A stretch of 64,000 nucleotides of DNA from Nymphaea colorata (Eukaryota > Streptophyta > Magnoliopsida > Nymphaeales > Nymphaeaceae), in NCBI RefSeq assembly GCF_008831285.2, contig NC_045139.1, positions 25,772,412 to 25,836,411 of the forward strand. The letters are read 5' to 3'. Both the position numbers and the translations under genes were made by a program. Below are positions 26,196 to 49,054 of the stretch, piece after piece. A model generated the notes under the pieces. It ran no database searches. It was not told the DNA's origin and was given only the letters and a program-made list of their open reading frames with translations. The first letter of the stretch is position 1; each line of letters begins with the position of its first letter.

Positions 26196-26734
26196 ATATT
26201 GATTATATACCTCTAGTGAGAATGTTAGGGAGGATGAACACCTTGGGTCCTAAACTTCCTTGAGTTGAAGCTCCAAAATGGTGAAGTTGTGGCTTCTAAA
26301 AGAGTTGTGACTTGATGAAGCATGCTCCCAAGTGTTGGAGAAGGAGAGATGAAGTGAGAATGGGAGAGGAAGAGGGAAATGGAGGAAGAGGATTAAAATT
26401 TCAAAGTCCTCAAGTGAAGATTTGCTAGAACTTCCCTAAGGGTTAGCTCTCACCCAAGAGGGAGGAAAATGAGGTGTATTTATAGAGGATTTTGGAGCCA
26501 AAACACAAAATTCAAATTTTTTGAAATTTTACAACATTTTCATTCGAATTTCAACTAATTTTGACTTATTTTCAATTTTTTGTAAAAAAATAAGCTTCAA
26601 ATAAATGGGATTGACCATTAAGCTTGTAAAAAAAAAAATTCTGATGTGGGTTGGGCCATTGCCTACCCAAAAAGACCAAAACCGCCCCTTCGAGGGTGTT
26701 TTTTTTGTCAAAAAAGAGGGGGGAAGGGGTACAT

Positions 26735-26860
26735 AACAGTGCACAGGCGCAACAGCACCGGGCGCTGTCGCGCACGACCGCAGCATGCGCGGTCGCGCAT
26801 TCCATCGCCCGACCGCGACACACGCGATCATTCGATCACGTGTCGCACGCGTGAAGTCCC
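26735..26860. repeat. CpG-rich patch in U3 of Tat LTR copy 2
   Basis: About 125 bases dominated by CGCG, GCGC, CGACCGC and CACGCG words, flanked by poly-A/T and by 'aagaccaaaaccgcccctt'. The flanks are shared with copies 1 and 3, but the patch itself differs strongly between copies. Confidence 0.8.
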
Positions 26861-27220
26861 ATTTTTTTTTAAAAATTCTAAATTGAACGTTGTCATATAT
26901 AATATGTATTTTTGATTTAAAATAAATGGAAAGTTTTGTTAAAAACGGGTGCTCGGCTCCACTTTAAGCGATTTCGAACTTGTTTTAAATTCGATTTTAG
27001 ATTTTAATTTCGAAACACTCGATTTTGGATTTAATTAGCGGTTTTGAATCTAATTTGGATCCACGAATTAGAATTTGGGATTGAAAAAAAAAATTGAGGT
27101 GATTATAGATGCCCCTCTTTATTGCTAAGCCGGTGTTAACTGTGCTTAGTGACAAAGATAAGCACCATAAATTTTCAAACAAAATATGTGCAGAGTGACG
27201 TTTCTAGTTTACCCCCTCAC

Positions 27221-27512
27221 CTTAATGGATTGTTTGAGCTTAAATCGCAGGTTTTACCCATTGCCTGCACAGGTTTGCTGATTTCAAATTTAGGTTTAAC
27301 ACCTCTGAATGGGTTGCCTTGACTTGTATGGGGTTGCCTTGACTTGCACGAGAAGTTGAAACTGTGTGAGTTGCTTTGGCTTGTAGTACATTTTTAACCC
27401 CTTTACCTGCATGGGTTGCTTCGATTTAGCATTGCAGGTTTAACCCCTTGCCTGCATAGGTTGCCCTCATATTGCAAGTTTAACCATTTACCTACATAGA
27501 TTGCTCTCAAGC
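27221..27512. repeat. degenerate short tandem array in the 3' untranslated region of the Tat element
   Basis: A module close to 'ggtttaaccccttgcctgca' followed by 'tgggttgc' recurs at about 27249, 27292, 27391, 27432 and 27475, with variable spacing of 40-100 bases. It lies between the end of integrase and the polypurine tract. Plant Tat/Ogre retrotransposons are known to carry hypervariable tandem arrays in this position. Confidence 0.75.
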
Positions 27513-27798
27513 CTTCAGCGATAATAATGAAAAAAATGCCTCAGTGTAATTGTCATATTTTATGACTGGGAAGAATCTAAATTGAATAGCAGATGTTGAA
27601 ACACAAATATTTAACATTGATTGGAAAATGAATACAAGAGAACTAAGCATAAAATTTCTTGAGGTGAAGGGCATTAACAAGATCAGCAAGTTCCACCTCA
27701 TCAGCATCAATCAGTCAGTATGAATTGTGGGGCAAGACTTCCTTAACAACATATGAGCCTTCCTAATTTGGCCAATTTGGTGTCCACTTGTCTCGTGG

Positions 27799-28790
27799 TC
27801 ATCCTCTGAGGTATACCACTGATCGCAGAACTAAGTCACTCACTTTGAACTGTCTTTCAATAACTGACTTGGCAAATTGTCTGGCTACCCTTTGGCGATA
27901 AGCTTCAACGTGTTCGGTCACTTTTACCCTCTTTTCATCTAGCAGATCGAGCTGAATTAGTCTTTTATGCTGATATTGATTTAGAGGAAGTTTTATACGA
28001 GAAGCGAGCTTCAAAACAAGTTTTAGCACATGTAGTGGTAAAACTACTTCTGTTCTATAGACTAGCTTTGCTCGAGTAGCATTAGTTGGAGTTTTTATAG
28101 TGGTGTGATATACCCATAAAGCGTTATGTATCTTTTCATGCCAGTCTCTTCTAGTTTTCACTATTTGTTCCAAGATGCGGATCAAGATTTTGTTGGTAGC
28201 CTCTTCTTGTCCGTTGCCTTGGGGGGTAATAAGGAGCTGAAAAGTGGTGCATGTTATGGTATTTGTTGTACAACTGTCTCATCTTTTTATTTTTGAAATG
28301 AGTCCCGTTGTCAGACCCTATATCATGAGGGACCCCAAATCTGCAAAGAAGATTTTTGTGAATGAAGGACACTGCATGATGTCCTTCTGCTATTCTGAGT
28401 GTGATGACTTCTACCCACTTGGTAAAATAATCCGTTGCAACCAAAAAATACTTATGACCATTGGAAGCTGCAGGACAAGGTTTGACTACATCAAAGGCCC
28501 ACATAGAAAATGACCAACGAGATGTTACAGAATGCAATTGAGAGGCTGGTGCATGAATCACTGAAGCGTGCAGTTGGCATTTTTTGCACCTTTTGACAAA
28601 TTGGTAACAATAACAATCATTTTGCATAGTAGACTAATAATAACCTGCTCGAATTATCTGTTTGGTGAGGGTTTGATAACCAACATGGCCTCCACAATCT
28701 CCTTGATGTGACTCTTCGATGACTTCCTTCGCCTCATCTTCATCAAGACATTGAGAATATTCAGTGTTAAATCCACATCTGTGTGATACC
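27799..28790 (-). pseudogene. Tat retrotransposon integrase
   Basis: Minus strand from 28790. The HHCC zinc finger comprises His residues in SHQGDCGGHVGY and the CKKC pair near 28580, with a stop in between. The core has its Asp residues in the blocks around FDVVKP and GSDNGTHF. A one-base gain in a C-run near 28220 shifts the frame just before the conserved catalytic-Glu block, which is readable only in the next frame. The C-terminal part runs to 27799 (ARQFAKSVIERQFKVSDLVLR). It inserted retrotransposon cDNA into the genome and is inactive here. The position after RNase H is normal for gypsy elements. Confidence 0.88.
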
Positions 28791-29081
28791 CTTGCAAGAA
28801 TATAATACCTTGCTGACATACATTGGATTGTTTTTTTGTTCATTTTTGGGCATTTCAGTTGGGAATTCTCCACTTTTAATGTACCTTTTGATGTCAAGGT
28901 ACCAAGGCGTATTCCCTCTTGGATATGATGAACATGCGTCATTGTTTTAAAAGCAGGGTGTTCTAATCTTCCAATCTCAAAAGAATGAATTGCTTCATTG
29001 GTTCGAAAGTGATTGTGGATCCTAAGCTCACGAGGCCATCCGTAATAGGTTACCTTTTCTCTTTATGTGAGCCAGTTGTAC

Positions 29082-29408
29082 TTATTCAAACTGATGGATT
29101 AAGGAGGTAGCGATCTCTTGATATGATACTAACTTTTTGTCTTTGACTTCCCATTCACCATTCACTTGGTTTATAATAAGCTGGGAGTTGCCGAAGGTAT
29201 GTACCTTTTTCACTTGAAAACTTAATAAAGAACGAAGCCCTTGTATGAGGGCTTCAAATTCAGCCATGTTATGGGTACATGAAAAATCAAGTTTCAAAGA
29301 ATATAAGATCATTTCATCTTCTGGAGTGATAAGTAGGATGCCTATGTCTGCTCCCATCACATTCCTGGATCCATCAAAGTACATCTTCCATATCGGAACT
29401 GTTTCCAA
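29082..29408 (-). pseudogene. Tat archaeal-type RNase H (aRNH) domain
   Basis: Open stretch with the blocks YFDGSRNVMGADIGI, CTHNMAEFEALIQGL and TFGNSQLIINQVNGEWEVKD. In the family the third block normally reads GDSQL, so the Asp is Asn here, one sign of decay. A second RNase H between RT-RH and integrase is diagnostic of the Tat lineage of Ty3/gypsy. It would degrade the RNA strand during reverse transcription. Confidence 0.85.
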
Positions 29409-29499
29409 TCTTAGTACATGTTCATCTGAAAACTCATTATTCGTTCTGATTTCTTTGTATTGGGGGAAGTCTATTAACCGATCCGCAATTGTTTGTCCT

Positions 29500-30786
29500 T
29501 TGATTGACTTCTAAGACACATATTCAAGATCATATTGCATTAGTAGAACTTGCCATTTGGTGATGCATTCATAAAGGAAGGGTTGTTCTAAGATGTACTT
29601 GAGAGGATTAAGCTTGGAGAGGATCTTGACTTTACAAGCTAGTAAATAATGTCTTAGCTTCTGACACTTCCAAACCAATGCTAGACAAGTTTTTTCGATT
29701 GGAGAGTACTTGTTTTTGTACTAAACAAAAGTCTTGCTAATGTAATAGATTGCATGCTCAATGTGACTTCCTTCCTCATATTGTACCAAAAAGCCGCCAC
29801 ATGTTAGACTCATTCACTGTAATGTAAAACAGCAACGGTCTACCCAACACCGGGGGTTTTAGAATTGGCAGATTTAGAAAGTATTTCTTGATCCTTTCGA
29901 ATGACTTTTGGCATTCAACACCCCATTCAAACTTGACGTCTTTCCTCAGTAGTTGATTGAATGGTTCGCATCTCATGGTTAAATTAGAAATAAATCGCCT
30001 GATGGACAGAATTAGCAATTGCAAACTTTGCAACTGTTTGATATTGGTGGGTAGTGGCATATTGATGATTGTTTTAGCTTTGGTAAGATCCATTTCGATC
30101 CCCTTCTTACTGACCATGAAACCCAAGAGCTTGCCTGACTCAAATCCAAACGCACATTTTTGAGGATTCCAGCGAAGCTTGTACTGTAAAAGCCTCTCAA
30201 ATACTTGGGCAAGAGTTTCAATGTGATCGTCTATCATTTTGGATTTAATCAATATGTCATCGATATACGCATCCATGATTTTGTGCATTTAATCATGGAA
30301 GATAGCAGCCACGGCTCTTTGATAAGTTGCTCCAGCATTCTTAAACCCAAACGGCATTACCGTATAGCAAAAAGTACCCCAGGGTGTAGTAAAAGCGGTC
30401 TTAGGTTGATCTTTTACTGCTAATTTGATCTGATTATATCCCGAATATCCATCCATGAAAGAGAACATTGCATGGCCTGCGGTACTGTCAACCAACAGAT
30501 CAATGTTTGGAAGAGGATAATCATCATTCGGTGTGGCTTTGTTCAAGTCTCGAAAGTCCACGCATAACCCGATTTTACCATTTTTCTTGGGGACCACCAC
30601 GATGTTCACCAACCATTCGAGGTAATCAATGGTACGAATGAATTTTGCCTTTAGTAGATACTCTAATCCTTCTTTTACTGGGCCTTCTAGTCGAGGATCA
30701 AACTTCTGTAACTTTTGCTTAATTGGCTTGCAATTAGGATTTAAGGGCAAATGATGTTCAACCAACTGGGAGTCTAAGCCTGGCAT
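29500..30786 (-). pseudogene. Tat reverse transcriptase and RNase H
   Basis: Minus strand. RT spans 30786 to about 29950 with VVPKKNGKIGLCVDFRDLNKA, the FSFMDGYSGYNQI block, TPWGTFCYTVMPFGFKNAGATYQ and the catalytic motif YIDDI (about 30265). The gypsy-type RNase H follows (fragments to about 29500: KTFV...KYSPIEKTCLALVW, LRHYLLACKV). A stop near 30288 separates two RT blocks, and frameshifts break the RNase H. It would synthesise retrotransposon cDNA and is not functional as read. Confidence 0.92.
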
Positions 30787-31785
30787 GTCTTCATAATTCC
30801 AAGAAAAACTTCTTGGTTACTTATATGAAAGTCCACCAATCCTTTCTTCTCATCCACTGACAAACTGGTGCTAATTTGAAAGATTTTAGGATCTTCACTG
30901 TTTCCAATATTAAATTCCAATATTAAATTCTTCAATTGGATCATTCACCAAGGACGAGGGTGTTTTTGTTTCTGAATCTGAGTGAATTTTGGTAATTCTG
31001 ACTTGGGTATTGTCATAGGTTTCATTTCACCGGCTGGTTGTTCAATAAATGCTTTATGGGGGGACTTTCGAGGAAAAAGAAGAAATTGAGACATGTTGAG
31101 TTCTGACATCTTGTAAAGAGGAGAAAGGAAAGAATTAGATGAAATTAAAATTGACAATAAAAGATGACTTACATTTCATAAAAAAAGTTCTTAGTTCATA
31201 GCAGGGGTCCTCTTATGAGACCAGACAAAAAGAATTTTAAGATTACAAAATTCATGAGAGGATTTGAAACAAAAGTGAATACTATCAGCCCACAAGATCT
31301 CCTTCAAATTTCTTCATGATATTGCAGTCCTCTGGTGTTCATCTGAAAAGGAATACTAATCAGCTGCAAGATGCCATCTTCATTTTTCCCGAGGCCAATG
31401 AATGGACGGTAGCCACATTTCAGAAACAACTGAAATCCTTTAGGATTTTTTGTGAAATGAACATACAAAGGATGCTCTTGGTAATTTGCATGATTGCTTG
31501 AAATAGTATAAGTGCTCCTGGATGGTTCACTTATCTCCATATTTTGCATCCATTCTTCCAAAGATCTGTCCTTCATCGTTCTTACACTGGGTACATCCAC
31601 TGACTCAATCGGCCTAGGGAGCATTAGTTGTATTAACCTTTCAACCAGATCCTCAGCACGTATGGTGATGACCGACGGGCCGGAATTGCATTTGAGGCAC
31701 TGATGAAGAGTGGATAGATTCCTCGTACTTGGTGGATCCAATGTCATCCCAAAAGTAAGTTATATGATGATGGCACATCCACCAC

Positions 31786-31992
31786 TTAGAATACAATGTG
31801 ATGGCTAGTATTTTCGATGGCCACATTCATATCGAGAGTACCTTTACTATTCATGCCTCCACCATCATATCCGTAGATCTTGATATTATTAGAGTGATAT
31901 TTGTCTTCATGAAACACCAAAGTTTTGGCTGTGAGATCAGGACAAATATTCATGCCACTTCCTTCATCAATCAACACATGTGGCACAGTCAT
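31786..31992 (-). pseudogene. Tat aspartic protease core
   Basis: Contains the active-site block VLIDEGSGMNICP; the family norm has D-G-G-S or D-E-G-S here, so the catalytic Asp is present. It sits between the gag C-terminus (32284 and up) and RT. Linker ORFs at 32035-32271, 31304-31747 and 30945-31157 (minus) belong to the same polyprotein and have no domain I can name. Confidence 0.8.
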
Positions 31993-32283
31993 CTCATTAA
32001 TCTGAATAATGATGTAAAGAGCATCTTCATGGTGTTATCCCCATTTTGAGAGGTCATTATCTGAAAAGGTAATTGATTGGTCCTTAGAGGGTCGAATCCA
32101 TTCTCCCTCAACCATACACTCTTTTAAGGGGAGAACATCCAAGTAGCATGGATCTCCATCCGATGGGTCATCTGATGATTCAACGCCTTGTAAGATAAAA
32201 GTCTTTGGAATCATGAGAAGTTTCTTGGGTAAACTTTCTGTCCTGCCGTTCATCATAACAATGAAATCCAAAGGTTTCTTACC

Positions 32284-33246
32284 TCAGTTTGCCTCCATGA
32301 CTTGGTGTGAACCGCTTCCAATACAAGGTCGGATGTGCTCTTGTGGATGATATGCGAGTAGAGTGTCTATGGTGATTGTGGCTGCTACCGACTTCCTGTG
32401 ATCAAGAAATGGATTCCTTAATATCTCAGGAGTGCTATCATCACAAATCTTGAGATCCTTGTTGATGAAGTCTTGAATAATATTTTTGAGGACAAAACAA
32501 TCCTCAGTGTCATGACTAGGGACATGATGAAACTTACACAGTTTTTCTTTATTTCCTCCCATCATTTTCAGAGGCTCTGATACTTTTGGCAAGATGATAG
32601 TTCCTTTGGCAAGGAGGTATTCCAGGATCTTCTCATGGGATTGACTGAGAGGAGTAAATTTTCAGTCATAGCCCCAGCCTGGGTGCTTGTTTTTCCTTTC
32701 ATCATCGCCTTTGAGAAACTGTGTATTCTTCTTGTGAATGACTTTTTTGTCCTGCTTATAACTATTGCCATGGTCCTCTCTAATGCCAACATTGGCTATA
32801 AAGTGTGCAGGCAACTGTGCCTTTCCTTTTTTTTTTTTCATCTTCTTTGTACATAGGAGGAATGCTTCCATCAAAATCTCCTTCCTCAATTCCTTCTTCT
32901 GTCGAGTTTGCTTGTTCAATGAACTCAACAAAGGTCTTGATCGGGTATTGCGGATGAGACTTTTCAAGGGCTGGGCAAAATTTTTCCTAATGAGTGACAA
33001 GGCTTGTGTCTCAGAAATGAGCTCATTCATCTTGTTGCATTGAATTCTCCAGTGTTGGATGAATTCTTGAGCATTTTCTTCCTGTTTCTGACGGAGACTG
33101 CAAATAGTACTGAGGGTTGGAGCCATGGGAGCATTTTGTTCAAATCTTTCGACAAACATGTTAATCAATTTGTCAAATTCTTTCAGCTCGACTGGGTTGA
33201 CATTTTCTTTGTACCATTGTACAACAATGCCTTCAAGACTTCTTGA
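32284..33246 (-). pseudogene. Tat gag region
   Basis: Minus strand. The retrotransposon gag core at 33168-32930 shows blocks such as LRQKQEENAQEFIQHWR. A lysine-rich stretch follows. The C-terminal Cys/His motif CKFHHVPSHDTEDCFVLKN (about 32530) matches the CxxH...HxTEDC motif usual in Tat gag. Frameshifts near 32700 break the frame. Gag packages element RNA into virus-like particles. Confidence 0.85.
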
Positions 33247-33844
33247 AAAATATCAGAACAAATCTATGTTATTTGTCCAAATTTTGTAGCAATCATTGAA
33301 AAAGGTTGAAAGGTGACGTGTGGACAAGTGGTTCTATCATATCTGACGAACTCTCTGGGCAAGCCTTTCATGTCTTCGTCCTCTTCAACGCTAAGGTAGT
33401 AGTTCTCACATGAGTATCAACATTTTCCTCTTTTCCTAAGCTCAAGATTGTATGATATTTCTTGCAAAACATATGTACATCCTTCTACGAAGTCAATATC
33501 TCCAATGGTAAAACGGGTGAGTCCTCGGTAAATGAAGGCTAAGGCTGTCATTGCTACTGACAAGTATCGGGTCCCATTACGCCCCCATACCCGAAAAAGT
33601 TGGGCAATACGGACATCTAAGATATCACTTTCATTGGTGAAAAGGGTCACTCCCACTGTGCAAAGCATCATACAATGTTTGATTCTTCTTTTGGCTTTTC
33701 GAGGTAAAATGGAAGGTTCAACATAGGCCCAAAATTCTTCATACAAATTTTCCATGTTGATGCTTTGATTTTCATGGTTTTCTATTAAAATCCAAGTTTT
33801 TCGCCCTGTAAAGTAAACAATGAAGTCATTTGCATTGACCTTGG

Positions 33845-34225
33845 TGATAAGATGTTGGATCTAATCTGATTCAAATCCAACATGTCTACTGAATCAGATC
33901 CAACACATCTAACCATGTCTGAGTGCATTTATCTAGGCAGAGTTATGATTGTAATTTCTGTAATTATTTTATTCTAGACTCTAGATTAATGTGTTGCTTC
34001 ACTCTAGGCTCTAGATTAATGTGTTGCTTCACTCTAGGCTCTAGATTATTGTGATTGTTTCATTCTAGATTCTTGTAAATTGTGTAGAGGGATCACTATA
34101 TAAATGGGTTGTGTGAGAATGTATACACTCACCTCCCTTCCTCATTTTTCTTTTCCTATTCTCTCTCTTATCTTTCCTTTGCTCAATCTGGATGTGGGTT
34201 ATATTTCGACACCCAAAATCTAACA
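33845..34225 (+). mobile_element. solo LTR (381 bp) with perfect 5-bp target site duplication, inserted in the Tat ORF
   Basis: Begins TGATAAGATGTTGGATC and ends ...AAAATCTAACA. It is flanked by CTTGG on both sides (33840-33844 and 34226-34230). It contains a TATA-like 'ctatataaatggg' near 34097 and a three-unit 30-bp tandem repeat. Host-element coding sequence continues directly on either side, which confirms both boundaries. No internal region is present, so it arose by LTR-LTR recombination or belongs to a short non-autonomous family. Confidence 0.88.
33971..34070. repeat. 30-bp tandem repeat, three units plus part, in the solo LTR
   Basis: 'ctagattaatgtgttgcttc' recurs with period exactly 30 at 33981 and 34011, and a diverged third copy starts at 34041. 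Confidence 0.95.
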
Positions 34226-34522
34226 CTTGGTTGGGCTCATAAGGAATTGTTTTTCCAATGGATCATTTGGGTCACAAGTTGGGGTAGATAGGTCTAGTAT
34301 TTCAGCAAATTCATCTAGTAATATTGTCATTTCTCTCCATGAAAACCAAAAAAATGAGGTCCTCGGGTTCCAACACTCGCGATTACATGTACCAAATTTT
34401 CATCAACTAACTGCATTCCTCTTGCTGCCACTGTCTCTAGCCCAGATTCTTCAAAGTAAGAAGGAAACATCCGAGAGAATGTGGGATACCAAGACCGATA
34501 CCATTCGGGAGCCAAAGATTTA

Positions 34523-34835
34523 GGGCCTGTTTGATGGCCTGGAAAAGAACTGTAGTGGTGGAGATAAAATTCAAATTTTTAAAATTTTTCCTCCTCCATC
34601 AAACGCAGGATTTTTTTTTTTACCGTTAAAGGTGGAAACAGAAAAATATTTCTGAAAATATTTTTCAAGCTAGAGGAGTGGAAAAATTTTTCAGGAATTT
34701 TTTTTTTACCGTTACGAGGAAGAAAGGACACAGAGGAAGAATGAGGAAGGAGGAAGAAAGGAAGGAGGGAGGAGGAAGAAGGGAGCGGGGGAGGAAGAGG
34801 GAGGGAGGAGGAAGAAGGAAGAAGGAATGCGATTG
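34523..34835. repeat. left terminal region of the 10.3-kb block
   Basis: Terminal GGGCCTGTTTGATGG, then AT-rich DNA with 'aaaatttttc'-type words and two copies of 't(9-10)accgtta' (near 34611 and 34707), then a purine tract (34719-34828). An internal 'ccatcaaacgcagg' (34596-34609) weakly mirrors the terminus, so a small nested MITE cannot be excluded. Confidence 0.65.
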
Positions 34836-35084
34836 ATTCAATGGATCCATATCCTGTTGTTGGATGCAACTATATAATGTTTTCAGAATTCAAAAGAGCA
34901 TATTTTTTGGTTTGATTGATCTGTTATAATATGGTTGATGTCCTAATGAAAGAAATGAAGTTGTGAAAAACTAGTAAAAAGTTGATTGATTCGAAGTATG
35001 TGTGCTTTTGAAATATCCTTTTTTGTGTCAGGCTGCTTTTCGATCGCACAAAATAACATGTTCTTTTCTTATATTGTTTTGCAG

Positions 35085-35374
35085 GTGTGATGCAAGGGTA
35101 ACAAGATTAATCAAACATTTGGGAGAAAACGTACATCCAAAACAAAAGCGTGTGCTGTGCATGAACAAAGTTGATCTGGTCGAGGTCAAGAAAGATTTGC
35201 TGAAAGTTGCAAAAGAGTTTGGCAATCTTCCTGGTTATGAAAGGTGGTTGTAAGGAGTGCACCTTATTCATGCTTTTATCCGCTTAGCAATTCCGTTTTA
35301 TATGCAGATTTTTTATGATTTCTGGCCTCAAAGGCTCTGGCGTGGAAGATCTTACTCATTATTTGATGGAGCAG
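35085..35374 (+). pseudogene. ERG: GTPase ERG (Era-like) gene fragment, two internal exons
   Basis: Exon 35085-35243 (after a TTTTGCAG acceptor, donor GTGGTT) codes the Era G-domain segment containing VHPKQKRVLCMNKVDLV, which includes the NKxD guanine-specificity motif, and ends PGYER. Exon 35308-35374 continues MISGLKGSGVEDLTHYLMEQ, the G5-side end of the G domain. The next intron would start with GC (GCAAGT), a rare but valid donor. Phases agree and no stop is present. The G1-G3 exons upstream and the KH RNA-binding domain downstream are absent. From the family, ERG is an organelle GTPase that assists small-subunit rRNA maturation. This copy is a captured fragment inside the mobile block and cannot make a GTPase. 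Confidence 0.85.
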
Positions 35375-37879
35375 GCAAGTATATCTTGCATTGTTCCTCT
35401 TTCTCTTATCTTAGATGATAAGCTTAGATTTCTTTTTTCAGGTGCTTGTGTCTTCTTTCTGCATCTCTTTTGTATGAGATTCATGAAACACTTTTTAAGG
35501 TGCTTAATGAATCTGACCAATTTTGGGTTAGATGCATTGGACATTAACATAATATAATGTTACTATTCTCAAACGACCGTTAATGTAATCGACCCTATAA
35601 TTTATGCTTTTTAGTGAAAACCATCTTCTCAAAATCTCTGTAAAGAACTCTCCAGATCTGACATTGTACAAACTGGGGTGAATTTGCACTTGTGAGGTTC
35701 GAAGCCGGGCCACCTTAAATGTCGGTAAAAAGGTAGAAAACGTCAGTAAAGATTTAACGGTGCGGCTTGTTGTACGACCAGGAAATCTGCGAGAGAGATG
35801 GGCATGCGTTACTGTAGAGGGCACCTTCATTAAGAAGAAAAAGGCATCATGAATGCACATGGTTCGAATTTTTAATGACCCGATCAAATCGAATATGGAT
35901 ATGTACACTTAAATCTGAGCTTCCACGGATTAATCAATATAATTATCCAAATCCGAGGTCGTTTTGGGCTTGACTTTAGCCGGTTGACGTATTTGATTTT
36001 TTTTGAATCCCATTAATGTGGAGTCAGCGTTCCATATCCATTGGAAACCGATAGTCAATGTGGGATTTCTAAAATAAGTTGCCATTCTGGTTGACCATGC
36101 TCTACGTAGGACTGTTGTAGAGGATTTCATTGTTTGTGGCAAAAAAAGGCTTTGGAATAAAACAATATCAGTCATACACATGTTTATGATTTGCGTGTGC
36201 ATAAGTTGAAACAGTTTGTGTTGACAACTTGTAATGCGTGGACGGTCCTGACCCCCTCTGTCCTGCTACTTTTTTAACTCATCTATCTTATCTCGTCCGG
36301 CCCCACGCTTTTTCCTTCATTAGTAAATTAAGTCATTGTAACTCATCTTAACTTAGTCACGATTAAGCCTTGGACCGACTCGTTCGAAACTTCAACATCT
36401 CCACGAGTACCTGTTCTTAGAAAAATAAAACGCCACCATAACGATAATCGTTCCGCCCTTTTCTTCTTCTTACAGGAAAAAAACAATTTAGAACTTTTGG
36501 TGGTGAAGACATCTAATGAGAACACACCATGGTTCCTTTGAATGTTGTGAGTATTAGGATCGAGTATCTATGTCACCAGGAATGCGACGAAGTTTTGGAA
36601 GCATAAAGCTCCTGAGAGGAGTTCCGGTCCGAATAGAACTTCTGTGCGGGCGATCCACGTTTCTCATTCACGCCCAAACTTTTGGGAGGCAGTAGATAAT
36701 TGGATGCTGGTGCATTAGTACCTGCGCCGGCCACTGCACGGTTAAGTAGACACAAAGATGATCTTGACGACTGTGTACAAACTTTCCTTAATTTAGTTCT
36801 GCATCTGCTGTCAGCTTTGACAAGAAGTCCGAGTTCGCAATTCCTTCTTATCAGTTTGGTTACTTAATTTGCACTTTTTGTTGTTTTTTTTTTCAACTTT
36901 ATATTTAAAGTATAAGTCCAGAAATTGTACACACACGCACTCAGATAAGCAGATCACTTGAAAATATAGCTTATCAAATTAAGTATATTTTACGCAATTA
37001 ATGAACCTTATATAGATATATAATCTTAAGAGTGTTCTAAATGACTAAGTCAACTGTTGTAATCACTAAAATTAAATTAACAAGCAAACAACTTGAATGA
37101 AAACATACTCTATGTTAAATTACATGCTCCATATGTTGTTTAGTGGTGATTGATCTTTTATATAAAAGTTATTTATGATATATTCAGTATGTTTTCATTT
37201 GGTTACTACTGTGACTTTCATTAAAGATAGAAAAAAAAGCACCGGATCAGCATTTTGCTGTTGTTAACAACAAAAAGAATTGTAGATGTTCATCAAATTT
37301 ATTGCCGCTTCTTTACTTCAAAGACGAGAAAAAAAAAAAAAAAAAAGAGTTTGGCGTTATAATTTAAATAAGCTGCATTAATGGGACGTCCGCTCAACCT
37401 TGTTCTACGCACGTATGGGGACGGGAAACGTAATAGTAATAAATAATAATAATAAAGAGCCGGCAAGGACCAACACCCTCAATTACTGTAAAGTAAATAT
37501 CCTCAGAACATTATTTTCATTTTTTTAAGAGTGAAACCAGAAGTATTTCATCGAATTGAAGTTTTCACCCTTTCATGCATTGCACTCAATCCTTAAGGAA
37601 GCTCAGATTCAAGTGTATATAAAAAGAATCACGCAAGAGCGCACGAGAGAACTGCCATCCTCCACACGCAAACAATCCTAATCCGAGTTTGACCTGCCCT
37701 TCTTTCTAGTGCTTTCACACTCACCGTCATTTTGTATATATAGTCTCTCCGTCTTCATGCAATCCCAATCACTGCTACCGCCATCTCCACCATTGCCACC
37801 ATCACCACTAGAACCGCCGTTGCAGCACTTTGCAGATTCTTTTATGCTTGGGCTGAGCAAGTTTGAAGCAGCTTCACGC
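35375..37879. other. non-coding stretch between the ERG fragment and the pectinesterase
   Basis: No recognisable coding sequence. The final kilobase is AT-rich with an A-run near 37330 and probably holds the pectinesterase promoter, carried along in the block. Confidence 0.45.
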
Positions 37880-38378
37880 ATGGCAGGAGAACGCCAACCA
37901 TCAGTTTTCGCCTTTGCATTATGCAAAACCCTGTTTCTTCTGTCCTTGCTTGCTGTTCCGCTGCTCGCGGCGTCTTCCGGAAACAATCCGCCGGTGCTTG
38001 TTAGTGAGCTCCTGCAGGCTGAGGCGAAGAGGAAGATCATAACAGTGAGCAAGGACGGAACGGGGGACTTCCAAACGGTGACTGATGCCGTTAACAGTAT
38101 CAAGACTGGGAATTCCCAACGTATAATCATCCGTATAAAGTCCGGAATCTACACAGAGAAGGTTACAATTGATCGCTCGAAGCCGTTTGTCACATTCTAC
38201 GGCGACCGCAATGCGATGCCGACGATCAGATTCGGCGGGAGGGCGGCTGTCTACACGACGATGTTCAGTGCTACGGTTGCTGTCGAGTCCAACTACTTCA
38301 TGGCTGTGAACATCATCTTTCAGGTAAGTATGTGCTTCGGCACCGTCAAATCCAGACATCTCTCTCTCTCTCTCTCTC

Positions 38379-38435
<57 letters not shown>

Positions 38436-40370
38436 ATGTTAGACAACCCTATCTTCTAATAACTGTTTGTTAAATGAAGGGATAAATAACTGAAGTTTCA
38501 TGTTGTTACGTTTCACAAAATCAACATCTAGTTTTTTTTTCTCTCTCTCTCTCTTTATATATGTTATATATAATGTCTGTTAATGTCAACCAGCTGACCA
38601 TATGTTAATGCAAACATAAAAACTGTCAAATTAAATGGATAAGAAGGTGATTGGCAGTTGTCCTTTTAAGAATTTCTCACGTGTTAATCATAACCGGTAA
38701 CTATATTAAACAAATAGTAGTAGATCGCACAGAAATATTTCCATATAAACTGACATGCCCAAAGATTAGATGATCTTTCTGCATTTAAAGGTAACAATGG
38801 TAAGCTAGTGTCGAGCATGAACCAGATGCCTGTTTAGCCAAAGACTGCTTGCTTCTACGTTAAATACCACTTGTTTGCACAAAGGCTGATTAATTGTATT
38901 TCTCTTAATTTCCTTTATTCTGATTTTTTTTTTTTTTTTGTTACTAGAATTCAGCACCAAAACCAAGGCCTGGTGAAAAGGGAGGGCAAGCGGTGGCGAT
39001 GCGTATCTCTGGGGACAATGCAGCATTCTACAACTGCCGGTTCTTGGGGCCGGTTCTTGGGCTTTCAGGACACCTTGTATGATCATTCCGGCCGGCATTA
39101 CTTCAAGAATTGCTTGATACAGGGCTCCGTCGACTTCATTTTTGGCAACGGCAGGTCCTTATATGAGGTATGCATCATCGCACAGGAACACCCACATTGA
39201 TACAAACACATACCATTAGTCATTTAGAATTACTTATTTAAAAGCAATTGGTTAACCATTTGATCAACAGTCACAACTGAAAATTAAGTACCGAAAACTA
39301 TTGCTGGAGTCATTGTGACTACAGACTTTTAACCATGGTTTCTGATTTTTTTAGTCATCCGGTAACATTTGGCAGTAGACTGATCCTATGTACAAATACG
39401 AGTGCATGTGTGTGAGTTCCTAATTGCAACAATTTATGGAAATAATACGCCAAAACAGCATCTTTCATCCTGAAGTACTTTTATCTTTTTTGTAAAATCT
39501 CTGTTGGTATTAATTTTTAAAGCCGTTCTGGGCAGGCAGGCATTTCTCCCAGCTTAATAGCTTGAAGATGGGTTAATGCAATTCATAGTAGACATAGATT
39601 AATGTTTATGTTAGAGATTTTCTCAGCACGCCTAGAATTTGGTGTTTTTGACAAAGAAACGTTGGTCTATCAAGGGTTCTTTGGCGTCGCAACCAGATGA
39701 TTCTGATAGAAAACCCTTTGGAAGAAGTCGTGCAAATTAGACCGACTGACATAGTTAAAAATCTCAAAGGCGAATGATAAAACTGACGGTTTGTTGTATC
39801 TGGGAGCAGGGTTGCGTACTGAAGTCAGTTGCGGATAATGTGGGAGTGACGGCAATGGTTGCGCAAGGGCGCAACAGCTCCAATGACGCCGGCGGCTTCT
39901 CCTTCGTCGGCTGCAACGTGACGGGGAGCGGGAGCGCCAACCTGGGCCGAGCATGGCGTGGCTACTCTAAGGTCGTCTTCTCCTACAGCTACTTCTCCTC
40001 CGTCGTCAATACCCGAGGATGGGACCAAAACGGCTTCCCCAGCCAGTAAGTACCAAATCTCTCTCTCTCTACTGAACACTGAAACCCAAAAATTTAAAAG
40101 CAATAAGCTATACTTGGGTTTCTTCTTACTAAATATACAAGTAGTTGTTAGGCTATTTACATGCTTCCATCTACTTCGTCTTAATAATGAATTATATATT
40201 TGTTCTACAGAAACCTGGTTTTTGGAGAATACAAGTGCATGGGTCCGGGAGCCAACAGAGCAGGGCGCGTGAAATATGCAAGAGCCCTCACCGATCAACA
40301 GGCGGCGCCCTTCTTGAGCACAACATACATTGGAGCAAGAAACTGGCTGCTCTCTCCGCCCTCGTTGTAA
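37880..40370 (+). pseudogene. pectinesterase (pectin methylesterase), four exons, frameshifted by a 13-bp tandem duplication
   Basis: Exons: 37880-38323, 38948-39167, 39810-40045 and 40211-40370 (stop 40368-40370). GT-AG introns have consistent phases. I chose ATG 37880 because it starts a good signal peptide (hydrophobic ALCKTLFLLSLLAVPLLA). In-frame ATGs upstream (37709, 37757) would bury it. The predicted length without the lesion, about 348 residues, fits the short class lacking the PRO domain. Family blocks: [76 protein letters not shown]. These include the catalytic Gln/Asp/Asp/Arg set. The enzyme would de-esterify cell-wall homogalacturonan. In exon 2, 'ccggttcttgggg' (39037-39049) is duplicated at 39050-39062, shifting the frame to a TGA at 39080-39082, before FQDT. 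The copy lies in the mobile block. I infer a pseudogene unless the duplication is a sequencing artefact. Confidence 0.9.
38359..38431. repeat. compound (CT)n-(TA)n microsatellite in pectinesterase intron 1
   Basis: CT run at 38359-38378 followed by a TA run at 38382-38431, starting 35 bases after the exon 1 donor. Confidence 0.97.
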
Positions 40371-42004
40371 ACTCACCACAGAAGATGATCGATTTTTGTG
40401 TTCAAAAGAGTTCAGATTTGGATCATCTCCTTGTAAATTCTGCAGCAATTTGTGTTCGATTTAGATTCGTTGCAGCCAAGATAAACGGGAAAGACCCAAA
40501 CACTAATGAGATCTGTCATAAGTTTTTAGATCTTACAATGTTGATGTTTCATAGATCTGTCTTAATTTTTTAAGCAAATTCATAAAGCAGCAGGATTGTT
40601 ACTTTCCTTTTTTTTTTTTTTTTATCACGCAACCTTTAACCGAACCGACTACTTAACCTGAGGTGATGATGTAAATTCATTTCAGATGCCTGTGGCTCAA
40701 TGCTACAAATTGTATGTAACTTTCATTTCTAGCTTTTCACTGTAAAATAAGCTGACAATTCAAAATTTGGGGAATATTTGTAATTCATGACTACTTGGTT
40801 TTGAAACAATTTGCTGCAACAAAGATGAAAACTTGAGCTCTTGTTCCAAACTCTCTCCTACGAAAGAAGATCCAAACTAGGCTGAAGTCTTTCTTCCCTT
40901 ATCCTCATACAGCTGCTTTTAGCACTTCAAGGCACGGTTTCAGTACAGTTCAGCTCTGACATTGATACCCATTTTTGCTGCACAAGACTTAATGTTGGAA
41001 CTAGAGTTTGGCTGCCTACTAGTTTTTAGCTCAAAGGAATGTCAATAGATCATATTCAAATTATTCAAGTTTGAATATAAATGAAAAAAAAGTCATATCC
41101 GAATATGATTGTACAATCTAAACCCAATTTTTATCTTGTATTTGAATTCACATCTGAATTTTAAACTGAATCCAACTAAAAAGGGGCATTAGATATGAGA
41201 TATTTTTTTTAAATCCAAACATTATCAAATGTCATTTCTTAAATCTGAGCCAGTTTCTTAATCGGCTTTATCGTATTTGTTGAGAAGAATAATTTGATTG
41301 GATATCCAATTCAAATTAAATATATTGACATTGATCTTAGATCTGTGGACCCGACCCCACGACCCCTTTCGGATATGGGATCCGCATATTTGTGGACAGA
41401 GATAAATCTAAATGTAAACCCTGTTAAGCGCTTTTAAAAGGTGGCATAGAATCCAAGGTGCATGCAACCGAGCGAGCGAGCCCACTGAAAAACCACTCTC
41501 ATCTCCTCTGCCTGCACCCGGTTTCTCCACTCCCTGTTTTCTTTCCCTCTTCCCAATCTTTCCACTAATGCCTCTCGGCCCCACCTCCTCACTTATCCTA
41601 CATACAATTTAAAATTACAAATTGCCACCCATATTGAGTTTATCATAAATTCACCTCAATTTTTTCAAGCCTAACAAAGTGGCCATCAACTTTTGTTCTT
41701 TATCACAAACCACCACCTTTGAGGACCGTGGTGGTTGACGGAAAAAAGTTATTCAACTACAAAATGTACCGAAAAGCCCTTTCAATTACAGAGATGGACG
41801 ATTCTTGTGGACGCAATGGGAGTTGGTTGGAGAAAGGAAAAAAAACGCTTCTGTTCGTCTTGCTTGCTTTATTCTTCCAACCATTTGAGAGGGTATACTT
41901 GTCATTAACCGTCCGTCTGTGTCCGCGAGTATGGGCAGTGGCCTCAGTACGAAACTTTGAGTGCCGATTTGTAATTTTTTCTTAAAAATAATAAACGTTG
42001 AGTT
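40371..42004. other. pectinesterase 3' flank and DnaJ upstream region
   Basis: A T-run at about 40608-40623, AT-rich spacer, then GC rises from about 41450. 'Aaccaccacctttgaggacc' (41708-41727) and the following sequence look repeat-derived. No gene is supported; open frames around 41786-42350 lie in the CpG-rich DnaJ leader. Confidence 0.4.
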
Positions 42005-42041
42005 CTCTCTCGCCCCTGTGGGGCCCCGCAAGGCGAGAGAG
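42005..42041. other. perfect 10-bp inverted repeat in the DnaJ upstream/leader region
   Basis: CTCTCTCGCC at 42005-42014 and its complement GGCGAGAGAG at 42032-42041, with an inner GGGGCCCC palindrome (42020-42027). In RNA it would form a stable hairpin. Whether it is transcribed is unknown. Confidence 0.6.
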
Positions 42042-42524
42042 CGACACCGTCGATTCAGTGAGGCCACCGAAAGTACGAAGTTGGCCTCCGAACGTTCTAG
42101 AGAGCCATCGTCTTCCTCACCCTCGCCTTGGTCGCTCCTCTCCACCACTGGCGAGGGAGGCGAGGGATCTCGTGCTCTCAGCGCGATCCCGGCCGCTCAT
42201 CGCACTCGATCCAACGGTCGACCCACCCCGACGTGCCTCCCGGCATCGTTTCCGCCTCTCCGGCGCCCGTCCCCCCGAGGTTTTCGCCCTCTTCCCGGCG
42301 GGCTTTGCGTGCTTTGAGAGGAGCAGAGGGCTGGAGATGTGAATACAGGGGAAGCAGCCGGGGAAGTAGAAGAATAAAAGAAGATTCTTTCTTGTTTTCT
42401 CTTTTTTTTTTTTTCTCTCTTTTCTGCCTATCTGTTGTCTTCGGCGCCTTAAATTTTTTGCCGGTTTTCTTCCGGCCTGTTGTTGCCGGAAGGTCGAGAA
42501 CTCGGCGGTTTCTCTCTCGTCCCG

Positions 42525-43929
42525 ATGGATGCCGGAAAGGAGACAGAGAGCAACTTGTACGGGGTGCTGGGGCTGAAGAAGGATTGCTCCGCGACGGACC
42601 TGCGGAGCGCGTATAAGAAACTTGCTCTTGTTAGCTTTCTTTTCCTCTCATTGCACTTTCTTTCTCCTTTCCTCTTATTCTTCCTTTTTGTTTTCTCTTC
42701 TGGTTGCGAAACGAGATTTTGCTTTCTCTCTCCTTTTTCCCCCTTCTTTTCGTTCGAGAACTCCTTCACCTTGTAGCGATTTGCGCGTATAGAGAGGTAC
42801 TGTGTTTCTCCATAATCCGTATAGAATTTGTTTTCTCCTAAAAACTGTTTTTCTGGATTCCTTTCCGGGAATTTGCGTGCTTTCGTTATCTCGCTTCGAT
42901 TTCGTGATGAAAAATTGTGCTTTTCCGTTCCTCTTTGTTCTGGTTCTTTGAATAAGTTTGCGTGAATTTAGAAAATTTGTAGAAAATTTTCACCTGTTTC
43001 TTCTTGTATTAGCCATAATCTGATTGCTGAACAATAAAAGTTCTCCTTCTAAAGTGCTTTTAGAATTTTTAACTTTTCTTCTTCGTGTGATTCTGTTTTT
43101 TTAAGAAATATTTTTTTTTTTTCAACTGTGACATGGTAAAGAGGCCGTTTATGGTTTTGCTCTCTTGATTCTAATCATCTCTCTTTTTTTTTGCTTCCTC
43201 GATTTGCCATATAATTTTCCCGCTAAATTTCTCCTTCGCTCGAGGAACAAGCAATTCTGCTTGGTGTGGGAGTTGTCCAGTTCGCCCCCAGCCGATCAAT
43301 GCTTCTCTTTTAATTACGTGATTGCCATCCCTTCGTGGCAAGTTCTATAGGATTATTTCTTTTCCCGCCGTTCGAAACGGCTTCATCTTTTGCGTTGAAT
43401 GCCGCGACGTACTCGTGTTTCTAATTGGAAAAATTGTTCTGAGGGATTTTATTTTGTTCCCTTTGTTTCTCTATTTATCCGAGCCTTTTTTGTCTATGAA
43501 TTTCGCGTAGGAGCTGGAGAAACGAACATCAACGACGTCTCCTTTGGGCGGTAAAACTTTCTTTCGCATGATTTGTTTTCGCTGATTTTGAAAACATTTT
43601 TACTATCTTTTTGCCCATAAAATCCCGACAATATGAACCCTCCCCATTTTCGGTCGTTTATAATAAAATTTCGCCCACCCAACCTCTAGGGCTGTCTTTC
43701 TTCCCATCATTGTGTCTACTTTGAAAATCAATGACTTTATGGAGCCCGAGCGGGTGCTTAGAAATTCCTTGGTTTTCCTGCCGTCCTCATTACTGGCATC
43801 CTTGCCGCCCTTAGTAAGCCTGGTTTTTGTGGCAGAGACGGCACCCAGACAGGTGTTCCTACTCCGGCAGCGACAAGCACGTTGAGGAATGGAAGATGAA
43901 ATTCCAGGCCGTTCAGGAGGCCTACTCAG
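42525..43929 (+). pseudogene. small DnaJ (J-domain) gene, 5' two exons only
   Basis: Exon 42525-42629 starts MDAGKETESNLYGVLGL and runs through helix II of the J domain (LRSAYKKLAL). Exon 43836-43929 begins RRHPDRC, with the HPD tripeptide that stimulates Hsp70 ATPase, and continues to helix III (KFQAVQEAYS), ending at donor GTTCGC. Frames join in phase. Upstream is a CpG-rich leader (42000-42520), typical of a housekeeping promoter. The family (small plant DnaJ proteins of roughly 150-170 residues) has a further exon or exons starting VLSD and a short acidic tail. I find none before the purine-rich end of the mobile block at about 44245. The gene is therefore truncated. A transcript reading on would add unrelated residues after the J domain. 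It is possibly expressed but probably not functional as a full chaperone partner. Confidence 0.82.
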
Positions 43930-44244
43930 GTTCGCATCTACCTTCCTTGCTCCATCTTTGGGAGTCGGAGTCCGTGGAGTCTAATTTAATCTCCCGTCAG
44001 AACATGGTAAAACATACTCCTTAAGTTCTTGATAAAAAAGAATCATCAGGCTTTAGGGAAGAATGAAACATTGGTGGAGTTTGAAGTGGGATAGTGATTT
44101 GCACTGAATATACTTCTCATGAAACAGTGTTGCGAAATGTCATACCTGTACTTTTACAGGCTGGCCTACTATTTGGTCAATTACTGTTATTAATTCCATT
44201 AAGTTTACTAGAAAATTAGGAATACACCAAACGCCTGTATTTAT

Positions 44245-44760
44245 CATTTGTTGCGATGTGAGGAGTAAGAAGGGAATGAGTGCGGAGGAAGTAGGGAGGC
44301 GGAAAAGGGAGGAGGGGAAGAGAGGAAGGGAAGGGAGGCAGAGGTAGAAGGGAAAGAGGGTGGAGGAAGAAGGGAGGCAGAAAAAGGAGGAAGGGAGGAG
44401 GAAAGGAAAGGAGGCGGAGGAAGAAGGGAAAGAGGGCGGAGGAAGAAGGGAAAGAGGGCGGACGAAGAAGGGAGGAAAGAGGAAGAAGGAGGAAGAAGAG
44501 AAGGAAGGAGGAGGAGGAAGAAGGGTTTACGGTGGCGTTTCTTCATCCTTCCTCCTTCCCTTCCTCCCTTCCCTTCCCTTCTTCCTCCATCTTACCCCCT
44601 CTCTCCCGTCTTCCCTTCCTCCTCCTCCTCCCTCCCTTTCCTTCCCTTCCTCCTCCTCCTCCTTCTTCCTCCTCCTCCCTTCCCTTCCCTTCTTCCTCCT
44701 TTCCCCCTCTCCCTTTTCCCTTCCCATCTTCCTCCTTCTTCCTCACCATTTCTTTTGGAA
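44245..44760. repeat. purine tract followed by pyrimidine tract (right subterminal region of the 10.3-kb block)
   Basis: 44258-44525 is almost pure purine on + (ggaggaagaagg-type words); 44544-44742 is almost pure pyrimidine (cctccttcttcc). The two arms are approximately inverted copies around a short spacer near 44530, so the DNA could fold back as a long hairpin or form triplex structures. Read from the right end inward on the minus strand, the second arm corresponds to the purine tract at the left end (34719-34828). Confidence 0.8.
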
Positions 44761-44866
44761 ATATGGAATTTTATTTCCCATTCACCAATTCTAGAAATTT
44801 TTTTGTGGAAATTTTTTTTCATTTTCATATTTCCAGCCATCAAATAAGCCCTTATCAAATAGGCCC

Positions 44867-45409
44867 TTAGATTCAATAAAGATGTATATAGACTGCTCGG
44901 GTCCTTCTCCAAAAAGGATATGATCATAAGGAAAGGTGATGCCACATAAAAAAGAATACATATGGAATGATGACTCTAAAGGATAAAGATTGAATTAGTG
45001 AAAAGATTGACTAGGTTGACCAAGATAACATGAAGTAGAGATGTGCAATGAGCTTGTAATTCATCACATAAGGTTTTATATATGTCAAGTTATGTTTATA
45101 TACCTTAGCCGAATGGTTTAGTACTAGCATAGGTTCTCCTTTAGGCAACTAAGGGTAGGGTTCATCAATTTTTTCTCGATCGCTCGTCGATATACCACAA
45201 ATTACCACTCATGGTACTAACGAGGAGGCTTTTCTGCCCAAGGTGTGATCTAGTTGTAAGGCTTAGACTTGTGCTACCACCTAAGACCAAGCCCCACAAC
45301 ATAATGACCGAGACAAATAGGCATGAAGAATTTTGAAATATGAAAAATCATGCAAAATCAGTTGTCTCTAATGTAATGTTGCCAAAGATCACGATTAAAA
45401 TAAATAGAA
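44867..45409 (-). mobile_element. Tat element 5' leader and start of its upstream ORF
   Basis: Minus-strand coding sequence is open from about 44990 to the block boundary at 44870. It continues in the same frame at 34519 after the block. The remainder (44990-45409) is non-coding and joins the truncated 5' LTR; I could not identify a primer-binding site with confidence. Confidence 0.55.
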
Positions 45410-45830
45410 GAGCAAATAAATGGGATTGGCCATTAGGCCTGTTAAAAAAAAACATTTTTTGATGTGGGCAAGGCTGTTGCCCACCCAAAAAGACCAAAAC
45501 CGCCCCTTGGAGGGCTTTTTTTTGTCAAAAAGGAGGGGGGAAGGGGCATGTAACAACGCCCAGGCACAACAGCGCCGGGCGCTGTCGAACGCGACCGTGG
45601 CACGCGCGTCGCATGCGCGAGGTCGCAAATTTTTTTTTTAAGTCTAAATTGAACGTTGTCATATATAATATGTATTTTTGATTTAAAATAAAAGGAAAGT
45701 TTTGTTAAAAACGGGTGCTCGGCTCCACTTTAAGCGATTTCAAACTTGTTTTAAATTCGATTTTAGATTTTAATTTCGAAATGTTCGATTTTGGATTTAA
45801 TTAGTGGTTTTGGATCTAATTTGGATCCAC
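45410..45830 (-). mobile_element. Tat 5' LTR remnant (copy 3), first ~420 bp of the LTR
   Basis: 45415-45830 matches 26597-27070 base for base over long stretches (for example 'aacgggtgctcggctccact'), with few substitutions outside the CpG-rich patch. Same orientation as the 3' LTR at 24018-27112. It abuts copia-B gag-pre-integrase sequence at 45831, as the outer edge of a Tat insertion would. The inner ~2.6 kb of the LTR is missing. Confidence 0.82.
45541..45632. repeat. CpG-rich patch in Tat LTR copy 3
   Basis: About 90 bases of CGCG/GCGC-rich DNA at the position equivalent to 26735-26860 in copy 2, but shorter and strongly diverged, although the flanks are nearly identical. Confidence 0.75.
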
Positions 45831-47300
45831 GAATTTACATGCATCACAGGAATGCCGATTAGGTTTGACATATGGAATAAGAATTTTTAGCAACCTATCT
45901 GAAATATGACCAAGCCTAGAGTGCCACAATTTGTACTCAAATGTCTTTCCTGCATGAGCAATAAAGCCAACCTCAATGTTGTCAAAGATATACAGGCAGT
46001 TGTGCTCATACCCTCTACCAATATCCTTTCTCAACTCCTTGTTTTGAAAAATTGCATTCTTGGAGAAAAAATAGCTAAGCAATTATAGTCTTTAGTTATC
46101 TTACTTAGAAATATAAGATTGGTAGAAAGTTTAGGAATATAAAGCACACAAGATTGTTTATTTGATTTGAAGAAACAAGATTCCCCAATGCTTTCTACAG
46201 CAATGGGTGTTCCATCAGCCGTGAATACGTGCTGATTTCTTTCTGGATTTAAATCAGCCATTTTAGAAAGATCACCAGTCATGTGGTAGGTGGCCCCAGA
46301 ATCAATGATCCATCCTAAATTTTTTGAATGAGTAGCGTACCTTTAGATGAGTTTCAAATTGGCTAAGTAGAAACCAGATTTGTCTTTAAATAATGCTGTC
46401 TTCACGGGTGATGAAGTTGGCTGTGTTGGGACTGTTGGACGAGAGTGACTTCTCTTTTCTTTTGATGATGGCTTTCCATTTAGCTCCCAACACTTTTATC
46501 AAGTGTTTCCAGTTTTTTTACAATACCAACATTTAAAACGATTTCTTCCTCTCTACATGATGGTCACATTTCTACTGCTTTTAATATCAGGTCTGGAATT
46601 GTTAGGCGGTGGTTCTGAATGAGTTTGATATGCCATCTTTTCACTTGTATCTTTAGCAGCCTCATGTTTCTTTTCGGATTCATAACTTTCCGGCGAGCAA
46701 CCTCTTTTTGTATGGTTTGACAGACTTGATTGAAATTTGGCAATGAATTTGTCATGAGTATTTGATTTCTAACACTCTCAAATTCAATTCCAAGTCCATC
46801 GAGGAAACAAAAAAATTTATCTTCTTCCAAACACTATCTATAAACATTTGGGTCAGTTATAGCAAGGCGATATTGCATTAGTTCCTCCCATAGACTACGG
46901 TATTGACTGAGATAAGATTGTAGCGACTTGTCTCCCATTGAAATATGAGCAAGTTCTAATTGAATTTGATAAACTCTAGCCAAAATGTTTTGTTCTCTAT
47001 ATATTTCCTTTAAAGTATCCCATATATCTTTAACTGTTTCATGATAAGTAAGCATATTTGAAATACTAGGCTCTATGGAATTTATTAACCAAGACATGAC
47101 TAAAACATTTTCAGACTGCCATTCATCAAATTTTGGATGAGAAATGTTCAGACGAGGAATCTTGCCCGTAACGTAGCCTCCTAGATAATTTGATTCGTGT
47201 AGAAGAGTAGTTGTGATCTTCAAGGTATTATTTTAATCAGCCGTAGACTTTTTTACACCGTCACTTGAATTGCTGCCTTGATTCCCATTGATTTGAGATT
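45831..47300 (-). pseudogene. Ty1/copia element B, gag, protease and pre-integrase
   Basis: Minus strand from 47223: UBN2-type gag (SWLINSIEPSISNMLTYHET, VYQIQLELAHISMGDKSLQSYL). A gag continuation at 46830 (FLDGLGIEFESVRNQIL) and a decayed zinc-knuckle region near 46500-46560 follow. Then comes the protease active-site region (WIIDSGATYHMTGDL near 46300), and the gag-pre-integrase block ending LWHSRLGHISDRLL and HSCDACKF at 45831. Several stops and frameshifts. Colinear with, and on the same strand as, the copia-B pol half at 22081-24017. Confidence 0.88.
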
Positions 47301-47335
47301 TGATGTCAAGATCACGAATAATTCTCTCTTACCAA

Positions 47336-47462
47336 AGTAAGTTGAGCCAAAGAGACGGAAAAAATCACAATAACAGCAGACTTTACATGGTTTGGCTTAG
47401 ATGCCTACATCCATGGCAGAAGAAGGAGGAGCTCTTTTATTTGATCTCTTTCATTCAGGGGT
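47336..47462 (-). mobile_element. copia-B 5' LTR fragment (U5 end)
   Basis: About 127 bases matching 21797-21925 at roughly 90%, immediately upstream (minus strand) of copia-B gag. The rest of the LTR is lost. Confidence 0.75.
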
Positions 47463-48345: not shown

Positions 48346-48540
48346 AGGGGTGGAGCCAGAAATTTTTTATAAAGGAGGTCGAATTAAAGTTTTTAAATTT
48401 TGATACGGGTTAAAATATAATTTTTCAAATTTTTTATATAAAACAAAGAATTTTTTCTAAAATTTACATGTAAGTTTTAAAAAAATAACTTTTTGAGGTA
48501 GGGCCAGCGCCCATGCAGGTCCTCCCTTGGCTCCGCCCTT
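48346..48540. repeat. MITE-like foldback element (GGCGGAGCC family)
   Basis: Left end AGGGGTGGAGCCAGAA; right end on the other strand AAGGGCGGAGCCAAGG. The AT-rich interior includes 'aaaatttacatgtaagtttt'. No coding capacity. Confidence 0.7.
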
Positions 48541-49009: not shown

Positions 49010-49010
49010 A

Positions 49011-49052: not shown

Positions 49053-49054
<2 letters not shown>

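Follow-up and report, generated by a model that had tools for sequence, protein, structure and literature searches.

The window analysed here is a 64,000-nucleotide stretch of the Nymphaea colorata genome (C2:25772412-25836411, contig NC_045139.1) in which a composite block at 34523-44866 interrupts a Tat-type Ty3 retrotransposon. The block is a miniature inverted-repeat transposable element (MITE) of PIF/Harbinger type with 9.4 kb of copied host DNA in its purine-rich core. This cargo falls into three pieces, here called A, B and C. A preliminary description of the same DNA had read the block as one Pack-type transposon of 10.3 kb carrying pieces of three host genes. Sequence searches covered one genome (407,766,735 bases in 783 contigs). 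The features are as follows (LTR, long terminal repeat; ORF, open reading frame).

26598..45835, - strand: host Tat-type Ty3 element with LTRs at 26598-27069 and 45413-45835, split by the block and by further insertions (LTR alignment; RVT_1 and weak gag matches)
34520..34522, no strand: left copy of the TTA target duplication (7/7 empty Tat paralogues overlap by TTA)
34523..34824, + strand: left MITE part, with the tip, the ~190-bp left end and the opening ~115 bp of purine-rich core (at least 40 family places scored; alignment with 17 copies that have both ends)
34825..35476, + strand: cargo A, copied from C2:15858587-15857927 and holding part of the gene for an Era-like GTPase, ERG (2 of 652 aligned bp differ; Era match of the spliced peptide)
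35476..43995, + strand: cargo B, pectinesterase gene and 5' part of a DnaJ gene, copy of C11:14000616-13992225 (185 of 8281 aligned bp differ, with 40 indels besides)
37757..40460 (approximate), + strand: frameshifted pectinesterase copy within B (PF01095 matches; frame compared with parent)
42525..43928 (approximate), + strand: first two DnaJ exon regions within B (PF00226, E 2.1e-10, spliced peptide)
43998..44260, + strand: cargo C, copied from C2:16001655-16001917, probably intronic sequence from the gene of a TruA-like pseudouridine synthase (6 differences in 263 bp; neighbouring ORFs)
44262..44851, + strand: right MITE part, with the remaining purine-rich core, spacer, pyrimidine-rich core and right end (search and 17-copy alignment)
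44852..44866, no strand: TTA and 12 bp, the outer copy of a 15-bp tandem duplication at the border (read directly)
44867..44869, no strand: right copy of the TTA target duplication (empty Tat paralogues)

The left tip reads GGGCCTGTTTGATGGCCTGGAAA on the + strand from 34523. On the - strand the right tip reads GGGCCTATTTGAT from 44866, and a second, inner right tip reads GGGCTTATTTGATGGCTGGAAA from 44851. TTA stands at 34520-34522 and 44867-44869, and also at 44852-44854. Direct reading bears out the inverted termini, the outer TTA and the inverted purine-rich subterminal regions of the preliminary description. The last 15 bp of the right border (TCAAATA[A/G]GCCCTTA) are tandemly duplicated with the TTA included (44840-44869), and 44851 rather than 44866 may therefore be where the element proper ends. 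This duplication could be the footprint of an earlier excision, but slippage or repair is the simpler source because, by eye, both copies carry the same two changes from the usual family tip.

The insertion into a Tat retrotransposon, likewise part of the preliminary description, is established by comparison with the seven Tat paralogues fetched (L024-L030), in all of which the two flanks adjoin with an overlap of exactly 3 bp, TTA. The block's right Tat flank matches 39 other scored places in the genome, and the minus-strand Tat frames, each flank read separately, reach the TTA from both sides. The LTRs are ~10% diverged (377 of 420 ungapped positions identical), which marks the host Tat copy as old. 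Set against the 2.2% divergence of cargo B, this figure is undecisive as a clock for the block.

The carrier, its family and foreign DNA in other members

The two MITE parts of the block (302 bp and 590 bp) add up to 892 bp, the normal size of a family member. Aligned to 17 two-ended copies, the end of the left part and the start of the right part are offset by -195 to +157 bp in 15 cases; the outliers are L043 (+393), which has a long core, and L044 (+670), which bears cargo of its own. By these alignments both block ends are halves of one nearly whole MITE of ~0.9 kb. Two different MITEs at the two ends are disfavoured, since the parts complement each other. MITE sequence loss at the cargo site is accordingly estimated as small, its exact size being blurred by the tandemly repetitive core.

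The family is dispersed. Its exact 16-nt tip GGGSCNGTTTGATGSC occurs 381 times genome-wide (190 forward, 191 reverse), against 0 + 1 occurrences of the reversed control pattern. A search with the left end (~304 bp) scored 40 of 451 candidates, the window itself among them, and one with the right end scored 40 of 225; the best other scored places are 86% and 77% identical, respectively. The 17 two-ended copies were fetched from the best-scoring places, not as a random sample, and measure 815-1606 bp. Identical 3-nt flanks border 12 of them (TTA 3, TAA 3, CAA 2, TGA 2, TCA 1, TAG 1); in some of the remaining five, the tip is degenerate or mis-set. A typical member, L003, is ordered as left end, purine-rich core, short spacer, pyrimidine-rich core and right end. 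L006, L035 and L036 have the left end, and the right end was not found in the pieces fetched; in L006 the purine tract by eye continues into copia-like sequence.

Three larger places could be the transposase source of the MITE family. They were picked by eye as DDE_Tnp_4 genome matches near exact tips, among the tip places listed (C1 to the start of C4), and all three were fetched. L046 (106-5262) and L047 (894-6094) are elements of ~5.2 kb with matching tips and TAA at their bounds; for L045 one end was found, and no second end in the fetched piece. ORFs of L045 and L046, the two scanned, encode Myb/SANT and DDE_Tnp_4 domains according to Pfam. Compared with the left end of L003, those of L046 and L047 show 72% identity over ~200 bp; compared with that of the block, they show 70-75% over 107-198 bp. 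Given the tips, the 3-bp duplications and the homology of its left end to elements that encode SANT/Myb and DDE_Tnp_4 domains, the carrier is classed as a non-autonomous PIF/Harbinger element, in agreement with the class first proposed for it.

Other members also contain foreign DNA. Three of the 18 two-ended elements first examined, block included, carry DNA that is also found elsewhere in the genome, and both other cargo types sit in the purine/pyrimidine core. L044 contains ~450 bp of an NF-YB gene (850-1380) whose parent lies at C8:7350523-7351258 (PF00808, E 4.5e-28); the middle of the gene fragment is absent, at a shared CTGCAC, and the 2.4 kb fetched around the parent contain no MITE ends. 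The NF-YB copies in L044, L049, L050 and L051 (C638 and C4) have their flanks in common and thus represent one insertion, later duplicated with its surroundings. They were rejected as proof of cargo movement, as the match runs on through the flanks.

The second type is an open-frame fragment of ~205-280 bp in L007 (1010-1310), L053, L054 and L056, found also at C11:8682011, C10:3739704, C10:7975430, C11:20950028 and C8:20774915; L055 matches in the fragment only and has no tips. The fragment has no Pfam or NCBIfam match, and the genome search did not find a source gene. Between L007 and L054, substitutions number 17/271 in the fragment, 29/146 in the right MITE end and 9/69 in the other end. 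The MITE ends are thus more diverged than the fragment, which places it in at least two MITE lineages; it may have been captured twice, exchanged or moved. It too was dropped as proof of cargo movement, for this reason and because L007 and L053 share ~190 bp of left flank.

Sources and ages of the cargo

A search with 34840-44250 returns three parents, besides the window and weaker partial matches. They are an ERG locus at C2:15.86 Mb, a pectinesterase-DnaJ locus at C11:14.0 Mb and a TruA-like locus at C2:16.00 Mb. All three are still in place and intact, and the assembly contains no second place matching the cargo as a joined whole. Two of the three templates are on the block's own chromosome (C2), 9.8-9.95 Mb off, and the third is on C11. 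Between the parents of A and C lie 143 kb; by a rough estimate, two independent random sites in 408 Mb would fall so close with a chance of ~7 in 10,000.

The cargo comes from four genes, encoding an Era-like GTPase, a pectinesterase, a DnaJ protein and a TruA-like protein. The preliminary description was right about host gene pieces that keep their introns as copied genomic DNA and about the 5' part of a DnaJ gene, but its count of three genes becomes four genes at three loci, with pectinesterase and DnaJ already neighbours in one native stretch of 8.5 kb on C11. A native ERG-pectinesterase-DnaJ neighbourhood was rejected for ERG, whose parent lies outside that locus, on C2. The pectinesterase copy spans the gene, as had been described; its frame, however, is shifted by a 13-bp tandem duplication in an exon near 39050, at a point where the parent is open. 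With the pectinesterase frameshifted and the other gene pieces partial, the cargo is by all appearances decaying. Beside the parent of B lies a second pectinesterase-like gene (L022, C11:14003098-14003942) with 65-69% DNA identity.

Several single exons have no Pfam match and one ERG ORF has no useful PDB match, and the names of the genes concerned therefore rest on spliced peptides. For A, the spliced peptide takes in one exon from beyond the copied piece; it matches mitochondrial Era in PDB (E 3.4e-4), and the Pfam GTPase matches that it has are under their cut-offs. C lies between ORFs of the TruA-like gene (PDB, E 1.2e-10; TIGR00071, E 4.9e-15, under the full-length cut-off) and is probably one of its introns.

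The pieces differ in their divergence from the parents, which is 0.3% for A, 2.2% for B and 2.3% for C. The substitutions in B comprise 117 transitions and 68 transversions (K2P 0.0227), and one of the two differences in A is its seventh base, at the MITE junction. In Fisher tests, outside which lie selection on exons and gene conversion, A is less diverged than B (p 1.6e-4) and than C (p 0.009), and C and B are alike (p 0.83). Among 7630 overlapping stretches of 652 bp in B, the minimum is five differences, and none has two or fewer. By this measure A is younger than B and C, and capture therefore would have taken at least two rounds. B also holds ~149 bp that are absent from its parent; ACTAG borders this stretch at either end, suggesting that the parent has undergone a deletion.

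The inner junctions are of different kinds. MITE and A have GAATGC in common, A and B share 1 bp, B and C are separated by two extra nucleotides (GT) as filler, and C and MITE share 0-1 bp. Microhomology thus amounts to 0-6 bp or is replaced by a 2-nt filler, with the chance level outside the comparison. There are no target duplications at the inner joints, and no MITE ends around the parents in the fetched 10, 9 and 20 kb.

Formation of the composite

We consider it moderately probable that the ~0.9-kb MITE landed first in the Tat copy and that the cargo was filled in place by repair, so that the 10.3 kb need never have moved as a unit. The single copy, the internal breakpoints, the little MITE loss and the same-chromosome templates favour this course, and the intact parents, the microhomology or filler, the two ages and the nearly whole carrier argue for repair with template switching inside the MITE. 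A non-autonomous PIF/Harbinger MITE would have entered an old Tat copy and duplicated TTA, as its ends, its class and the TTA copies indicate. Its purine-rich repetitive core may then have broken, or replication may have stalled there. Template switching at 0-6 bp of microhomology could have brought in B from C11 and C from C2, a pathway that would account for the copies, parents and junctions observed. In a later round, to which the age difference points, A would have been copied from C2, 143 kb from C. The MITE would have lost little, and the outcome resembles a Pack-PIF of 10.3 kb that formed where it is now located.

Pack-MULEs likewise hold gene fragments of several loci between inverted termini; they differ in belonging to another superfamily, with another transposase and longer target duplications. 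The closest parallels are the gap-filled Pack-TIRs of animals (TIR, terminal inverted repeat). According to the available text of PMC8277862, single-copy animal Pack-TIRs mostly arise from gap filling without transposition, and the marks of this process are a single copy, microhomology, a small internal gap and a same-chromosome bias. The block resembles them: it is single-copy, its cargo lies within a resident TIR element, and its breakpoints are internal and show microhomology; the parents are intact, and two templates are on its own chromosome. It differs in its plant host and PIF type, and in joining three templates, in rounds, from Mb away or another chromosome.

Several points weigh against the MITE-first course. 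Two templates are 9.8-9.95 Mb distant and the third is on another chromosome, whereas 56.9% of the animal cases lie within 15 kb, and PMC8277862, as far as its available text goes, expects transposition-coupled formation to matter more in plants. The order of MITE insertion and capture is undated, the Tat LTRs (~10%) being too old to help, and the empty Tat sites leave it undecided between a MITE that came first and a finished composite. MITE loss is imprecise in a tandemly repetitive core. Gene conversion could be the source of the low divergence of A.

A finished composite would be a true mobile Pack-PIF, in which the same repair-type capture took place in a MITE elsewhere, perhaps on C2, before a PIF transposase moved the ~10.3-kb element into Tat. 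We think this possible, though rather doubtful. Both ends and the TTA duplications are intact, 5.2-kb elements combine the same tips with a transposase, and the 143 kb between the parents of A and C would suit a capturing element once located near them; two capture rounds are compatible with repeated excision and repair, and maize and rice Pack-PIFs form copy clusters (PMC8903248, available text). The composite is, however, single-copy in the assembly, and its breakpoints are internal with little loss, where abortive repair after excision is expected to lose more near the ends (PMC8277862, available text). The other family members provide no proof of movement, given the shared flanks of the NF-YB copies and the more diverged MITE ends around the 280-bp fragment. 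The Pack-type reading of the preliminary description thus holds for the anatomy, namely host genes between the TIRs of a non-autonomous element with parents elsewhere, but a one-step transposition of the 10.3 kb is in our view less likely than filling in place.

Such carriers are also less unusual than it had supposed, judging from the available text of two papers. Pack-PIFs have been published for maize and rice (PMC8903248), and in grapevine, PIF elements contain a region of up to 3.5 kb into which genomic stretches have been copied (PMC2528002). The maize and rice elements likewise enclose host gene sequence between PIF ends, with a 3-bp duplication, and are non-autonomous; particular to the block are its almost whole carrier, 9.4 kb from three loci, two age classes, one copy and no visible fusion of neighbouring elements. 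Pifvine-3 of grapevine is of the same superfamily with copied exons and introns, but its region of up to 3.5 kb lies beside transposase genes and is common to several copies. A literature search on Nymphaea colorata, transposable elements and gene capture left the species unnamed among the matches listed, from which absence does not follow.

Two further explanations fare much worse. In one, two neighbouring MITEs would have fused, with chromosomal DNA enclosed by their ends. This is a model in print for Pack-CACTA and other Pack-TYPE elements (PMC8903248 and PMC13317346, available text), but we judge it very improbable here, as the cargo comes from three unlinked or distant loci, the stretches fetched around the parents show no MITE ends and the left and right parts make up one MITE. 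An ordinary gene neighbourhood or assembly artefact would fit the native adjacency of pectinesterase and DnaJ on C11 but is barely credible with A and C from C2, 185 substitutions and 40 indels between B and its parent, no runs of N in 30000-50000 and seven empty sites.

Returning to repair within a resident MITE, we propose tentatively, and as quite possibly true, that DNA is captured recurrently at the polypurine/polypyrimidine core of this family. The core could break or stall replication and be repaired, with no transposition involved, by switching to templates at unlinked loci, repeatedly in one copy and in several members. If so, a plant MITE family acts as a gene trap. The shared core position of foreign DNA in the family yields a concrete prediction. 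According to the available text of a 2026 review, DNA transposons may take up unlinked gene fragments by a mechanism still to be discovered (PMC13317346). Here one genome displays four inner junctions, three intact parents, an empty site, a near-whole carrier and two capture ages, and the repair model thereby becomes directly testable in a plant.

Surroundings of the block

The host Tat copy is bordered and interrupted by other sequences. A probable solo LTR lies in its coding region at ~33981-34230, with a TATA-like stretch and a TAACA end. Minus-strand copia-like gag/pol ORFs at 45836-47732 break off where the right Tat LTR has its outer edge, which would suit an insertion of Tat into a copia element. 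Next to the left Tat LTR, on its outer side, a 177-nt unit occurs in two tandem copies that are 92% alike (25819-26172). Still farther from the block, the 111-nt arms of an inverted repeat (17984-18094 and 24114-24224) are 78% complementary and 6 kb apart.

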